Assembly: GCF_025244725.1 (NCBI RefSeq)
Contig: NZ_CP104203.1
Span: 496,001-560,000, forward strand
Direction: 5' to 3'
DNA: 64,000 nt
Source: Chryseobacterium oranimense
Lineage (GTDB): Bacteria; Bacteroidota; Bacteroidia; Flavobacteriales; Weeksellaceae
Both the position numbers and the translations under genes were made by a program. The notes under the pieces are model-generated. The model saw only the letters and a program-made list of their open reading frames with translations. It was not told the DNA's origin and made no database searches. Shown in pieces: positions 27,613-31,732 of this stretch. Positions within the stretch are counted from its first letter, which is position 1. Every line of letters begins with the position of its first letter.

Positions 27613-28431
27613 TCATTCATGATCTGCCCATCCCTTCACTGCACCGCCTTTAAAAATTTCTTCTGCTTTTTTAACCACGGCCTCTGACTGATATGCTTTT
27701 ACAAAGTTTTTAACTTTTGCAGAATTCTTATTGTCATGGGTGGCAACAATTACATTCACATATGGTGAATCTTTATCTTCACTGAAAACGCCCTGTTTTT
27801 CTGCATCTAACCCAGCCTGTGAAGCGAAATTATTATTGATGATGGCAATAACCACTTCTTTGTCATCCAGTACTCTTGGCAGCTGTGGGGCTTCAATTTC
27901 CAGGATTTTCAACTGTTTTGGATTTTCCGTAATGTCGGTAACTTTAGGTAGTAATCCGACACCTTCCTTTAATTTTAACAGTCCGTTTTTCTGAAGAAGA
28001 AGTAATGACCGGCCTTCATTTGTAGGATCATTGGGAATGACGATCGTGCTTCCGTTCTGCAACTGGCTAATATTTCTGATCTTTTTTGAATAAGCCACAA
28101 TAGGATATACAAAAGTATTCCCGACTACGGCCAGTTTGTATCCTCTCTGTCTCGATTGTTCATTCAAATAGGGAACATGCTGGAAGGCATTAGCTTCGAT
28201 ATCTCCGTTGTTTAAAGCTTCATTCGGAACTACATAATCATTGAACGGAATAAGCTCCACGTCAAGATTATATTTTTCTTTAGCCACTTTTTTTGCTGCT
28301 ACGGCAATTTCCATTTCCGGGCCGTAAGTAATTCCTACTACAATATGATTCGGATCATCTTTTTTCCCTGAACATGAATTGAATATAAAGAGTCCGGCTG
28401 CTAAAAGACCTATAATGTTTATCTTTTTCAT
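27613..28431 (-). CDS. metQ: Methionine ABC transporter substrate-binding lipoprotein MetQ
   Basis: 272-residue NlpA/MetQ family lipoprotein that binds methionine outside the inner membrane. Lipobox: LLAAGLFIFNSCSGKK (Cys at about 20). Family blocks follow: IVVGITYGPEMEIAVAAKKVAKEKYNLDVELIPFNDYVVPNEAL is cut into the usual beta-strand and PNEALNNGDIEANAFQHVPYL; later IVIPNDPTNEGRSLLLLQKNGL. It is the last gene of the metNIQ operon, 55 bases after metI, with a hairpin repeat in that gap which may let MetQ be made at a different level from MetNI. Confidence 0.92.
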   Translation of the reverse strand: MKKINIIGLLAAGLFIFNSCSGKKDDPNHIVVGITYGPEMEIAVAAKKVAKEKYNLDVELIPFNDYVVPNEALNNGDIEANAFQHVPYLNEQSRQRGYKLAVVGNTFVYPIVAYSKKIRNISQLQNGSTIVIPNDPTNEGRSLLLLQKNGLLKLKEGVGLLPKVTDITENPKQLKILEIEAPQLPRVLDDKEVVIAIINNNFASQAGLDAEKQGVFSEDKDSPYVNVIVATHDNKNSAKVKNFVKAYQSEAVVKKAEEIFKGGAVKGWADHE

Positions 28432-28451
28432 TAGATTTTTTTTGTTAAAGA

Positions 28452-28476
28452 GGTGGCTGAGGTACTCGAAGCCACC
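28452..28476. repeat. Intergenic hairpin repeat, copy 2, between metI and metQ
   Basis: GGTGGCT (28452-28458) pairs with AGCCACC (28470-28476) around GAGGTACTCGA; the core is identical to the copy at 27505-27529 except for one loop base. Its site in the metI-metQ gap is where a 3'-stabilising hairpin would alter the ratio of the two proteins. Confidence 0.8.
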
Positions 28477-28486
28477 GTTATTGTAT

Positions 28487-29143
28487 TTACCTGTGGTCGA
28501 ATTTCTTTGCTAATCTGTCTCCTGCAAACTGTATGATGAAAACCAATACAACAAGCAGTACCAGAACTACATTCATAATCACAGCATCATAGCCGATATA
28601 CCCATACTGATAGCCGATCTGTCCTAAACCGCCTGCGCCCAATGCACCTCCCATTGCGGAATAACCTACTAATGTGATTAAGGTAATCGCTGCGTTGTTT
28701 ATCAGGGAAGGAAGTGCTTCCGGAAGCAATACTTTTTGAATGATCTGTAAAGGTGATGCACCCAAAGCTCTTGCGGTTTCTATCAAACCATGCGGAACCT
28801 CGAGAAGACTGTTTTCCACCAACCTGGCAATAAATGGAGCTGCTCCTACACTCAGCGGAACAAGGGCTGCATTCATTCCAATTGAAGTTCCAATAATTAC
28901 CCTTGTAAATGGAATCATCCAAACAATCAAAATAATAAAAGGAATAGAGCGGAAAATATTAACCAGAATAGAGGTTACTCTATAGTAAGCTGTATTTTCC
29001 AGCAACTGGCCTTTCCTTGTTAAAAACAGTAGAATTCCGACCGGAAGTCCTAAAACAAATCCAAAAAATCCTGAAACAAACGTCATATAAACCGTTTCCC
29101 AAAGCCCCTTTCCCAATAGAGAAATTACCGAATCACTAAGCAT
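28487..29143 (-). CDS. metI: Methionine ABC transporter permease MetI
   Basis: 218-residue inner-membrane permease with about five TM segments, the usual MetI size. The conserved coupling loop LIETARALGASPLQIIQKVLLPEALP (EAA motif) is at about residues 115-140, and AMGGALGAGGLGQIGYQYGY follows at about 160-180. Its start overlaps the metN stop by 8 bases, indicating translational coupling. With MetN and MetQ it imports methionine. Confidence 0.93.
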   Translation of the reverse strand: MLSDSVISLLGKGLWETVYMTFVSGFFGFVLGLPVGILLFLTRKGQLLENTAYYRVTSILVNIFRSIPFIILIVWMIPFTRVIIGTSIGMNAALVPLSVGAAPFIARLVENSLLEVPHGLIETARALGASPLQIIQKVLLPEALPSLINNAAITLITLVGYSAMGGALGAGGLGQIGYQYGYIGYDAVIMNVVLVLLVVLVFIIQFAGDRLAKKFDHR

Positions 29144-30164
29144 ATCCTTTTACTGTATTTTGAATTTTATTCTGGTTAAAATAATAGATCGCTTTCTGGT
29201 TGTCTTCGGTTTCTCCCTGTAGCTGAAGCAGTAGTTTTCCGAAATTGGAATCACCAAGGTATTCTACATCAGCTTTCAGGAGTTTGTAAGGTATTTTATA
29301 TTGGTCGTAAAGGGTTGACAGAAGTTTTTCAACACTGATATTTTCGTTAAGTTCTATTTCCACCAGCGGAAATAAACCGTCTTGCGGTTCTTTCTGCAGT
29401 TTTTTATTAAGTTCCTGAGGTATGGTCATGATATCTGAATTTATAAATTGTCGGATCACCGGATTTTCCCTGTCCGAAATAATCTCGCTTAATGTTCCTT
29501 TTGCTAATAATTTTCCTTTGTCGATCACCGCAACATGATTGCATACAGCTTTGATAACTTCCATTTCGTGGGTAATCAGCAGGATGGTGATGCCAAGTCT
29601 TTGATTAATATCTCTTAAAAGCTGCAGGATCGACTGTGTGGTCGCCGGATCCAGTGCGCTGGTCGCTTCATCACAAAGAAGGAGATAGGGGTCATTGGCC
29701 AGAGCCCTTGCAATGGCAACTCTTTGTTTCTGCCCTCCGGAAAGGCTCTTAGGATAATCATTGGCCTTGCTTTCCAGTCCTACAATCTTCAGCAGTTCAT
29801 TTACTTTTTTATTGATCTCATCTTTACTTACATGGTCAAGCTCTAAGGAAAGAGCTACATTGTCAAAAACCGTTCTTGATGAAAGCAGGTTAAAATGCTG
29901 GAAGATCATCCCGATTTTTTTTCGTTCACCTGCAAGCTGTTTAGGGCTTAGCTTAGTGAAATCCTTTCCGTTGATAATGATCTGGCCTTCGTCAGGTCTT
30001 TCCAGAAGGTTTACGGTACGGATCAGAGTACTTTTTCCTGCGCCGGAAAACCCTATGATCCCTACGATATCTCCCTTTTCAATGCTCAGGCTTACCTGAT
30101 CCAGTGCTTTGAAAGACTGCTTTTTTTGATGAAATGTTTTTGAAATGTTCTTAATTTCTATCAT
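29136..30164 (-). CDS. metN: Methionine ABC transporter ATP-binding protein MetN
   Basis: 342-residue ATPase. Walker A is GFSGAGKST, the signature LSGGQKQRVAIARAL, Walker B LLLCDEATSALDP, and the switch histidine lies in LITHEM. The C-terminal 75 residues (about 268-342) form an ACT-like NIL domain (LVEIELNENISVEKLLSTLYDQYKIPYKLLKADVEYLG cut here into its start and end), which in MetN binds methionine and slows uptake when the cell is replete. It starts 23 bases after the EamA transporter stop, so it is in the operon behind the Met leader. Confidence 0.93.
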   Translation of the reverse strand: MIEIKNISKTFHQKKQSFKALDQVSLSIEKGDIVGIIGFSGAGKSTLIRTVNLLERPDEGQIIINGKDFTKLSPKQLAGERKKIGMIFQHFNLLSSRTVFDNVALSLELDHVSKDEINKKVNELLKIVGLESKANDYPKSLSGGQKQRVAIARALANDPYLLLCDEATSALDPATTQSILQLLRDINQRLGITILLITHEMEVIKAVCNHVAVIDKGKLLAKGTLSEIISDRENPVIRQFINSDIMTIPQELNKKLQKEPQDGLFPLVEIELNENISVEKLLSTLYDQYKIPYKLLKADVEYLGDSNFGKLLLQLQGETEDNQKAIYYFNQNKIQNTVKGYA

Positions 30165-30187
30165 TTTTTTAATGTATAGTTTTAATT

Positions 30188-31183
30188 TTAAATAGGCTGA
30201 TACGGTCTCACGGTCTTATTGAAGAACCTTTTCACTCTCCTGATCTTTACTTTTGAGCGCTTCGAAAGCCTGAAGTATTTGGTCGTATTGGTAAGAAGTA
30301 CTCCCAACAATATCACAGATAGGCCGTACAGCTGGCTTCCGTTAATGGTTTGCCCGGCTACGATCCAGCCTGCGAATACAGTAACGATCGGGTTAATATA
30401 AGTATGGGTACTTACCAGTGCTGCCGGCTTTACAGATAGGAGCCATATGTAAGATAAATAAGCGACTATCGATCCGAAAAATACAAGGAACAGTACTCCT
30501 GCCCATGCCGATACAGGAACATTGGAGAATGAAAAATCGTGCCATTCTCTTCTGAATGAGGCAATAATAAAGGAAGCAGCTCCGGCAATGATAAGCTGCT
30601 GGGCAATATTCATAAACGTGGACTGTGAGGCCGGGTTTTTCTTTGAATATAAAGATCCCAGAACCCATGCCACAGAACTTAATGCCAGTACAATAAATGC
30701 GGAGATCCGCAGTTTTCCGTCAGCTGCTGTATGATGTGCACTGGAAACGCTTCCATTCAGAAATAGTACTAAGCCTGCAAATCCTATAATCAATCCGATT
30801 GGAATGAATTTATCGGAGAAATAGTATTTCCAGTTTTTCTTATCAATTGCAATGAACCAAAAAGGACCTGTTGCAATGGCGATTGCTGCTTCAGAAGCAG
30901 ATACATACTGTTCGCCCCAGGCTACAAGACCCGTTCCTCCGGTAAGAATCAGTATTCCGGTAATCCCGTTTTTTTTCCAGTTGGTTAAAGAATTTGCTTT
31001 TTCACCTTTAGCAACCAACCACCCCAGCATTAGCAGTCCTGCAGCTAAAAACCGGAATCCGGAAAGGATAAAAGGAGGAAATCCTTTAAGACCGAAAGAA
31101 ATGGCGAGGAATGTAATTCCCCAAATCACATAAATATTGATAAATGCGAGCGGCACCAGCCAGCTGTTTTTAAGAGTGCTCAT
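30188..31183 (-). CDS. EamA/DMT family transporter, first gene of the met operon
   Basis: 331-residue inner-membrane protein with ten hydrophobic segments in two EamA repeats (about 8-140 and 160-300), typical of DMT transporters. Recognisable strings are WGITFLAISFGLKGFPPFILSGFR-like near residue 20 (here split over the first two TMs), SEAAIAIATGPFW (about 97) and PAALVSTHTYINPIVTVFAGW (about 250-270). The Lys/Arg-rich C-terminal tail is cytosolic. It sits between the leader peptide/terminator and metN, 23 bases upstream of metN. Its place there suggests a substrate linked to methionine or cysteine metabolism, but DMT proteins transport many metabolites in either direction. Confidence 0.85.
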   Translation of the reverse strand: MSTLKNSWLVPLAFINIYVIWGITFLAISFGLKGFPPFILSGFRFLAAGLLMLGWLVAKGEKANSLTNWKKNGITGILILTGGTGLVAWGEQYVSASEAAIAIATGPFWFIAIDKKNWKYYFSDKFIPIGLIIGFAGLVLFLNGSVSSAHHTAADGKLRISAFIVLALSSVAWVLGSLYSKKNPASQSTFMNIAQQLIIAGAASFIIASFRREWHDFSFSNVPVSAWAGVLFLVFFGSIVAYLSYIWLLSVKPAALVSTHTYINPIVTVFAGWIVAGQTINGSQLYGLSVILLGVLLTNTTKYFRLSKRSKVKIRRVKRFFNKTVRPYQPI

Positions 31184-31211
31184 TTGTATGTTTTTGTATA
31201 TTATTTATATT

Positions 31212-31246
31212 AAAATAAAAAGGCCCTACAACGTGGTAAGGCCTTT
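31212..31246 (-). terminator. Attenuator terminator ahead of the EamA-metNIQ operon
   Basis: On the minus strand AAAGGCCTTAC (31246-31236) pairs with GTAGGGCCTTT (31229-31219) in an 11-bp stem with one G-T pair and a 6-base loop, then a T-rich run. It lies between the stop of the 32-codon leader (31272) and the EamA start (31183), so it controls entry into the operon. An alternative pairing of leader bases 31268-31280 (CGTGG and CCTT, minus strand) with the terminator 5' arm at 31232-31245 (CCACG and AAGG) could act as antiterminator. Confidence 0.8.
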
Positions 31247-31271
31247 AGAATATGGTATATTTAAATCAAGG

Positions 31272-31370
31272 TCAGCCACGGAATTTCTGATGCATAGGCA
31301 TACAGTTGCACATCATCATAGTTTTGATGGCCTGTTTATTTAGGGACTGATGTTTTAATTCCTGTTTCAT
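31272..31370 (-). CDS. Met/Cys-rich leader peptide, 32 aa (probable attenuation leader)
   Basis: A 32-codon frame opens with ATG at 31370, about 20 bases after the expected transcription start, and ends with TGA at 31272. The peptide starts MKQELKHQSLNKQ and contains TMMMCNCMPMH at residues 17-27: five Met and two Cys in nine positions. It has no signal peptide. Its position between a -7 box and a strong terminator, ahead of an EamA transporter and metNIQ, is the layout of a transcription-attenuation leader in which ribosomes stall at Met (or Cys) codons when the amino acid is scarce. An alternative is a small metal-binding peptide. Not a frame found by a length filter; no family name known to me. 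Confidence 0.7.
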   Translation of the reverse strand: MKQELKHQSLNKQAIKTMMMCNCMPMHQKFRG

Positions 31371-31396
31371 TTTATTTCATTTCCTGAATACGGTTG

Positions 31397-31404
31397 CAAA
31401 TATA
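31397..31404 (-). promoter_or_regulatory. -7 promoter box of the leader/EamA/metNIQ operon
   Basis: On the minus strand TATATTTG matches the flavobacterial -7 consensus TAnnTTTG exactly. No clear TTG is seen 17-23 bases upstream. Transcription would begin near 31390, giving a roughly 20-base leader before the small ORF. Confidence 0.6.
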
Positions 31405-31732
31405 GGACATATATTTTTATTAGTCCACTGAAATTATAGACTTTTTAATGTTTTTTGTTTATTTAATTATTAATGTATTGTTTTTCAGGTTCTTGTGTTG
31501 TTTTAAGTTTTGTTAATACATTGATTAGAAATTTAAGGGGCGGATTATTTCTTTTTGTTGGTTCAAATGTTTCGATGATATCAGCAACTAAATTTCACCT
31601 AAAAATATATAATCATTCATTAACCTTTATTCCAGATATTTATCCTGACGAAGCAAACATCAACTCCTAACTAAATTAGCAAAATCCAAAAAAAATCCCG
31701 ACTTTTGTCCCCCTTCAATAATCCCGAAATTC

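Follow-up and report, generated by a model that had tools for sequence, protein, structure and literature searches.

A likely methionine-codon attenuator preceding the EamA-metNIQ operon in Chryseobacterium

Methionine genes are usually under the control of SAM riboswitches, according to passages in PMC1262725 and PMC3766115. In the window analyzed here, which is a 64,000-nucleotide stretch of the Chryseobacterium oranimense genome, a short open reading frame (ORF) rich in Met codons and an intrinsic terminator lie ahead of a methionine importer operon, raising the question of which signal controls the transcription of this operon. The likely answer, to which we give a probability of roughly 0.8, is a ribosome-mediated attenuator of the classical kind: charged tRNA-Met, and perhaps tRNA-Cys, is predicted to decide the transcription of EamA-metNIQ.

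All elements are located on the minus strand in the order of -7 box, leader ORF, terminator with T-run, EamA, metN, metI, and metQ. The predicted promoter is a Bacteroidota-type -7 box at 31397–31404 (TATATTTG). The leader ORF of 32 codons (31272–31370, MKQELKHQSLNKQAIKTMMMCNCMPMHQKFRG) ends with the stop codon TGA at 31272–31274 and contains the control-codon block MMMCNCMPM in codons 18 to 26 (31293–31319). The terminator is an 11-bp hairpin (31219–31246) consisting of a 5′ arm (31236–31246, AAAGGCCTTAC), a loop (31230–31235), and a 3′ arm (31219–31229), with a T-run at 31217–31221. The 5′ arm is common to a putative antiterminator, whose 5′ strand (31268–31280, CGUGGCUGACCUU) lies across the leader stop codon and is predicted to pair with 31232–31245. 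The first gene of the operon encodes an EamA-family transporter (30188–31183, PF00892), and is followed by metN, metI, and metQ, encoding the ATPase (29136–30164) and permease (28487–29143) of a methionine ABC transporter and a methionine-binding lipoprotein (27613–28431), respectively. MetI (NF008049, 383.2 bits, cut-off 212) and MetQ (NF008285, 397.4 bits, cut-off 374) scored above the cut-offs of their subfamily models, and MetN was below the NCBIfam MetN cut-off in its best family (TIGR02314, 439.8 bits, cut-off 499.7). An earlier sequence-only reading of the window had described an exact -7 box, a 32-codon Met/Cys-rich leader ORF, an 11-bp terminator with T-run, a competing pairing over the end of the leader, and EamA and methionine importer genes downstream; each was found at its place. 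Its interpretation of these elements as a classic attenuator for methionine is supported by the sequence comparisons below, with the addition that cysteine may be co-sensed.

We examined how widely the leader is distributed. At E ≤ 1, tblastn with the 32-amino-acid leader peptide matched 46 of 60 genus genomes; the weakest of these matches are probably due to chance. Of 296 family genomes, 160 contained the leader according to a covariance model (E ≤ 0.01), comprising 144 genomes of Chryseobacterium and 16 of other genera, and the match was strong (E ≤ 2.6e-7) in 142 of the 144. Among the genus genomes listed, seven had no strong match, two of them with a weak one (G227 and G298) and five with none. 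These seven and G241 all lacked metI (found in 0 of 8), and the same metI query was positive in 54 of 148 family genomes. In G241, a divergent leader (L139, 94000–98500) is followed by a lone NIL-domain remnant of metN, and metI was not found there. The loci of the family matches outside the genus were inspected apart from those of G084, G148, G160, G164, G181, G200, and G218, and two of them contained leaders (L138, and L142 with Cys codons); the weak genus matches of G227 and G298 were set aside.

In 41 distinct genus loci, the gene after the leader was EamA in 30 and metN in 11. Because metN directly follows the leader in these 11 loci, the partner of the leader is metNIQ and not EamA. EamA is apparently shortened in G017 (L037), where the metN match starts 560 bases past the leader stop codon compared with the usual distance of approximately 1,105 bases. 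Another observation concerns metI, which was matched as two pieces in G154 and G157, suggesting a broken gene; the leader of G154 (L135) is kept.

Searches over a wider range gave little outside the family. When each GTDB species was represented by one genome and scanned with a DNA pattern, 72 loci were obtained, 64 of which were in Chryseobacterium or Weeksellaceae MAGs; the other eight, outside Weeksellaceae, were dismissed as apparent chance matches having no surrounding leader. An order-level covariance search was positive in 77 of 296 genomes at E ≤ 0.1, the genus included, and the five out-of-family loci inspected from it (L147–L150 and L156) contained no convincing leader. Twenty weak or odd covariance-model loci in and out of the genus included five leaders (L138, L139, L142, L146, and L155). 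The remaining 15 were set aside as terminators lacking a Met/Cys leader; 11 follow open frames of more than 200 codons. L036, whose box (TATACTTG) is one base off in the -7 box, had been left out of an early 30-locus set. As judged from these sequence searches, the leader arrangement is real, conserved, and lineage-specific.

We then compared 75 genus leaders taken from the 142 strong matches (54 with loci already fetched, 20 lower-scoring ones, and that of G223). The sequence-only reading had made its proposal depend on the conservation of the leader as an ORF, and an ORF of 31 to 34 codons was present in all 75, the length range being partly set by our rule (ATG start, 27–36 codons, stop codon 48–75 bases before the match end). 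The position of the stop codon was kept while the codon itself varied among TGA, TAA, and TAG (65, 9, and 1 leaders). In 73 leaders, a TAnnTTTG box was located no more than 60 bases from the start codon. Non-start Met codons numbered 4.45 per leader on average, compared with approximately 0.64 expected, and at least three were present in 74 leaders; tandem Met codons were also present in 74, with their end 13 or 14 codons ahead of the stop codon. The window leader contains five non-start Met in 31 codons (P of approximately 4e-4 at the window Met frequency of 2.06%, calculated from 15,370 residues of long open frames in the window). Cys codons were enriched as well, with a mean of 2.31 per leader in the 75, and those of the window leader are codons 21 and 23, 12 and 10 codons before the stop codon, with no Cys run. 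Since Cys is enriched alongside Met, the signal may be something other than Met alone, and both amino acids may be sensed.

The residues of the leader could instead matter as a product. A functional small Met/Cys-rich peptide, for example one that binds metal, with a terminator that merely tunes the operon, would account for the sequence MMMCNCMPMH in the window, which resembles a set of soft-metal ligands. However, His at -6, Cys at -11 and -12, and Met at -7 and -13 were variable among the 75 leaders, and the last two codons varied mostly with the nucleotides GTGG kept (CGT, TGT, AGT, or GGT before GGN). Many of the ligand residues being variable, a metal-binding peptide was rejected, and we regard a functional peptide in general as extremely unlikely.

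Most leaders also share the motif Cys-Met-Pro, with Cys at -10, Met at -9, and Pro at -8 in 69, 71, and 70 of the 75 leaders, respectively, and with the codon CCT for Pro in 69; the motif's presence in 41 of 41 leaders of the first set is partly by construction, as these were picked with the pattern TG[CT]ATGCC. Such conservation down to the Pro codon would suit nascent-peptide arrest, in which the Cys-Met-Pro peptide would respond to Met, SAM, or some other ligand within the exit tunnel by stalling the ribosome, instead of the codons sensing tRNA charging. The motif is nevertheless lost in leaders that are otherwise kept, being C-M-S in L155, S-M-S in L284, C-M-R in L280, C-A-R in L281, and C-V-S in L287, and leaders of other genera have Met codons without it (MMMCYRMKM in L138 and MIMCYQMAMP in L230). 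The motif is dispensable, and an arrest peptide as the main mechanism was rejected on this ground; we consider it improbable.

An attenuator further implies two mutually exclusive RNA structures. The window terminator folds at -15.5 kcal/mol, and the competing pairing of 31268–31280 with 31232–31245 at -8.9 kcal/mol once the 3′ arm is left out. Folded in full, the 193-nt leader was unremarkable (z of -1.56; 12 of 200 shuffles folded as well). In the alignment of 41 leaders, 99.6% of the cells in the terminator columns were paired. The sequence-only reading had named covariation as a check, and the result was divided: in the terminator, both sides were changed in 15 cells, of which 14 belong to a single pair, a level reached by 0 of 500 shuffles, but the antiterminator in a fixed register showed no covariation beyond shuffles (88.5% vs. 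88.4%). The antiterminator columns contain many invariant positions, and the register shifts between species.

We also scanned each leader for the 18-base window that best matches the terminator 5′ arm. The best complement overlapped the stop codon in 70 of the 75 leaders, and the mean pairing energy was -11.8 kcal/mol for the stop-codon window compared with -8.3 kcal/mol for the best upstream window. For 15 other terminators detected by the same model, which include the near-duplicates L140 and L141, the stop-codon window was best in three, with means of -5.0 and -7.9 kcal/mol, respectively. Pairs from the same leader were also better than swapped pairs (-11.69 vs. -10.88, sd 0.147; 0 of 20,000 permutations of 50 pairs, with relatedness ignored). 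The best complement was upstream in five leaders, in four of them around the Cys-Met-Pro codons. Codons -10 to -8 (TGTATGCCT) can themselves pair with the terminator 5′ arm as an alternative to the stop-codon region, and do so slightly better than that region in 4 of the 75 leaders. The antiterminator was weaker than the terminator in all 75 leaders (means of -9.1 and -15.0), indicating that the switch would depend on the folding order during transcription. These computations predict an antiterminator that is exclusive with the terminator and that a ribosome positioned on the stop codon can cover.

A ribosome at a stop codon covers approximately 15 bases on either side, so the antiterminator strand would be covered. 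When Met is plentiful, the ribosome would thus reach the stop codon and mask 31268–31280, and the terminator would form. When charged tRNA-Met is scarce, the ribosome would stall on the Met codons and leave 31268–31280 free, and this strand would pair with the terminator 5′ arm ahead of the synthesis of the 3′ arm, resulting in readthrough by the polymerase. The last Met codon is located 9 codons before the stop codon in 50 leaders and 7 codons in 20 (5 in two, 13 in two, and 14 in one), and a distance of 7 or 9 codons, as in 70 of the 75, is about enough to free 31268–31280. A stall at the tandem Met codons would leave the antiterminator strand free, and a stall at Met -7 would be borderline. 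Scarcity of Met would also lower initiation, and if the leader is not translated, this strand would likewise stay free. The effects on initiation and elongation would therefore both lead to readthrough, unless an upstream protector pairing intervenes; a protector-type pairing (GGCCAU-GUGGCU) appeared in the predicted fold of the window leader, a single leader. The sequence of the locus itself shows a promoter-like box, a leader ORF, a terminator, an operon, and a stretch around the stop codon that is complementary to the terminator 5′ arm, and the Met control codons match the amino acid of the operon, which encodes a methionine importer.

A metabolite-binding riboswitch or protein-binding RNA in which the short ORF is incidental would explain why the nucleotides between the stop codon and the terminator (ACTTTTATATGACATAT) are well kept in many members of the genus, beyond the needs of spacing. 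These nucleotides are, however, altered in the leader of the window itself and absent from other genera, and, in alignments A1 and A2, the gaps within the ORF span whole codons. Moreover, none of the 4227 Rfam families, T-box and RF01692 included, matched the leader at gathering or at E ≤ 5, and nine divergent loci gave no Rfam match at gathering. We thus judge an RNA of this type very unlikely. The genome contains three SAM-I riboswitches (RF00162) at other places, preceding a metX-like gene, whose best families are MetX at scores under the cut-off, and two TonB-dependent receptor genes. A SAM riboswitch at metNIQ, an explanation that the sequence-only reading had named among the findings that would overturn its own, was rejected, because the leader has no RF00162 match and the SAM-I copies lie elsewhere.

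An operator-like imperfect inverted repeat, AGTCTAT-AATTTCA-GTGGACT(AAT), is located just 5′ of the -7 box (31419–31442, minus strand). It was present 5′ of 74 of the 75 genus leaders at four or fewer mismatches, with an exact right half in 55 and an exact left half in 49, and in many leaders the right half alone is exact. In the window genome, the repeat AGTCTAY-N6-AGTRGACTAAT occurred at zero to two mismatches at eight sites, which include 31419–31442; the others are at 2386106, 2971949, 3659556, 4225145, 4322662, 1919318, and 1929995 of contig 1 (L254–L262). At three or fewer mismatches a reversed-pattern control gave 26 matches and the real pattern 17, so only the near-perfect sites count. 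Near-perfect repeats adjoin two of the three SAM-I riboswitches, those of the TonB-dependent receptors, and one also precedes a further TonB-dependent receptor gene. Others precede genes for a NIL-domain protein, a 1-Cys peroxiredoxin, and a cupin. Another has an Rrf2-family regulator gene on one side and a TauE-type gene on the other. The inverted repeat is probably the operator of one sulfur regulon.

The question arises whether a DNA-binding regulator at this repeat is in control and the terminator is constitutive. The presence of the repeat at nearly every leader is in keeping with such control, as is its recurrence beside the Rrf2-family regulator gene and the SAM-I riboswitches. A regulator would leave the Met codons and the pairing at the stop codon unexplained, and both controls could act together; as the sole explanation it appears distinctly improbable.

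The attenuator reading was also compared with loci beyond Chryseobacterium. Regions upstream of metN were obtained from 20 genomes of six further genera, besides L138 (g26). Met leaders were present in L138 (MMMCYRMKMQRCC, MMMCYRMKM), in four of four loci of g23 (MIMCYQMAMP, IIMCYQMAMP, or MIMCLCMAMP), in the one locus of g10 (MIMCCHIHLSHCCC, MIMCC), and in one of four loci of g21 (MVMNCNGMH). No obvious Met/Cys leader was seen upstream of metN in g16 (1 of 1), g17 (5 of 5), and the other g21 loci (3 of 4). The leaders of g26, g23, and g10 differ from those of Chryseobacterium in the sequence near the stop codon. They too are followed by a terminator, and the strand that pairs best with its 5′ arm once more includes or adjoins the stop codon. 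With terminator arms set by hand for these divergent leaders (L233 was left unscanned), the pairing at the stop codon compared with that upstream was -11.2 vs. -5.9 in L138 (-7.3 vs. -5.9 with the automatic arm), -14.6 vs. -6.3 in L230, -14.6 vs. -7.4 in L231, and -14.4 vs. -6.8 in L232. The margin was small in L235 of g10 (-11.5 vs. -10.9). In L240, the best strand starts one base past the first base of the stop codon (-11.5), with -11.2 over the stop codon and -6.2 upstream. L138 (G180) also has a terminator-like hairpin and T-run just 5′ of the leader ORF, which may be the end of the preceding gene or a tandem element.

A different arrangement was observed in g9, where all five loci contain a short ORF with one to three Cys codons, adjacent to each other in four loci and a single one in the fifth, in a different flanking structure. 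Pairing was weak in the two loci scanned (-6.5 and -7.8; shuffle P of 0.49 and 0.29). In these loci (L237–L239, L243, and L244), the Cys ORF is flanked by near-complementary strands, AACACTAT or ACACTAT before and ATAGTGT after it, most clearly in L238, L243, and L244, and a terminator follows.

Related leaders precede other operons. A second copy of the Met leader, MMMQYYMCRSM, lies before an amino-acid permease gene in G294 (L146, 59500–63500), the best family of the permease being BcaP at a score under its cut-off. The pairing of L146 was weaker at the stop codon than upstream (-9.6 vs. -10.6 with the hand arm, -8.7 vs. -10.1 with the automatic arm), and that of L155 was also slightly better upstream. 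In another genus, a leader with Cys codons (...KICCMEKTIPIFCV) and a terminator (L142, G152, 28000–31600) precede cysM and genes for a JAB-domain protein and a ThiS-ThiF-rhodanese protein. Its pairing was -10.9 at the stop codon vs. -8.3 upstream with the automatic arm and tied at -8.3 with the hand arm. This element is likely a cysteine attenuator; matches to its cysM in the window genome were only 31–32% identical.

From these loci we tentatively outline a Weeksellaceae family of sulfur-amino-acid attenuators responding to tRNA-Met and tRNA-Cys, placed before metNIQ, a BcaP-like permease gene and, with Cys codons, cysM-JAB-ThiF. They would share an Rrf2-type operator that is also found beside SAM-I riboswitches. 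One regulon could in this way combine a protein regulator with two RNA sensors, in which SAM would control synthesis and outer-membrane uptake and tRNA-Met would control import. The effect of Met scarcity on both initiation and elongation would make the leader a double sensor, unlike other attenuators.

E. coli trpL is the type of the classical leader-peptide attenuator. As in the trp, his, leu, ilv, phe, and thr attenuators, the locus studied here has a leader ORF with tandem codons, a terminator before the first gene, and an antiterminator near the stop codon; it differs from them in its Met (and Cys) codons, its importer target, and its Bacteroidota host. The Bacteroid-trp RNA motif RF01692, which reportedly holds a Trp leader peptide, is likewise a cis-regulatory motif of Bacteroidetes, whereas our leader matches no Rfam family. 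That motif is listed in part of PMC2864571, and attenuators are described in sections of PMC1262725 and PMC2965389. Passages of PMC1262725 report leaders with Cys codons in Actinobacteria and none for Met there, Met being under the S-box elsewhere; a polycysteine ORF paper of 2020 is cited in a part of PMC13236596. The Actinobacterial leaders have a sulfur amino acid signal in common with the window leader but carry Cys runs near the stop codon, in Mycobacterium without a conserved terminator hairpin (PMC1262725, same passages), whereas here tandem Met codons far from the stop codon are combined with an intrinsic terminator. The fthC upstream ORF may sense Met indirectly via initiator tRNA, according to a portion of PMC11109978.

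The sequence-only reading had held such a leader to be undescribed in Flavobacteriia. This was correct in part: clues for leader-peptide attenuation 5′ of amino-acid biosynthesis operons are given for Flavobacterium psychrophilum in PMC9723704, which names pheA and hisG among the genes preceded by structured 5′ elements and concerns the same phylum and kind of mechanism, and the word methionine is absent from the main text of that article. Short ORFs in 5′ UTRs of B. thetaiotaomicron are likewise called reminiscent of leader peptides in a part of PMC7366714. We found no description of a Met-codon attenuator in the open-access literature searched, subscription papers being mostly outside this search. 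The kind of mechanism is known, and the amino acid (Met) and the target (an importer) are apparently new. The leader would be a conserved attenuator in a phylum where such leaders were only suggested in the passages of PMC9723704 and PMC7366714 concerned, and its natural sequence variants are available for reporter tests. The SAM-I riboswitch RF00162 is the usual RNA control of methionine genes, and none of its three copies here is at metNIQ. As SAM-I riboswitches and a Met-codon leader for import are present in one genome, SAM sensing and charged-tRNA sensing can be tested side by side as alternative solutions.
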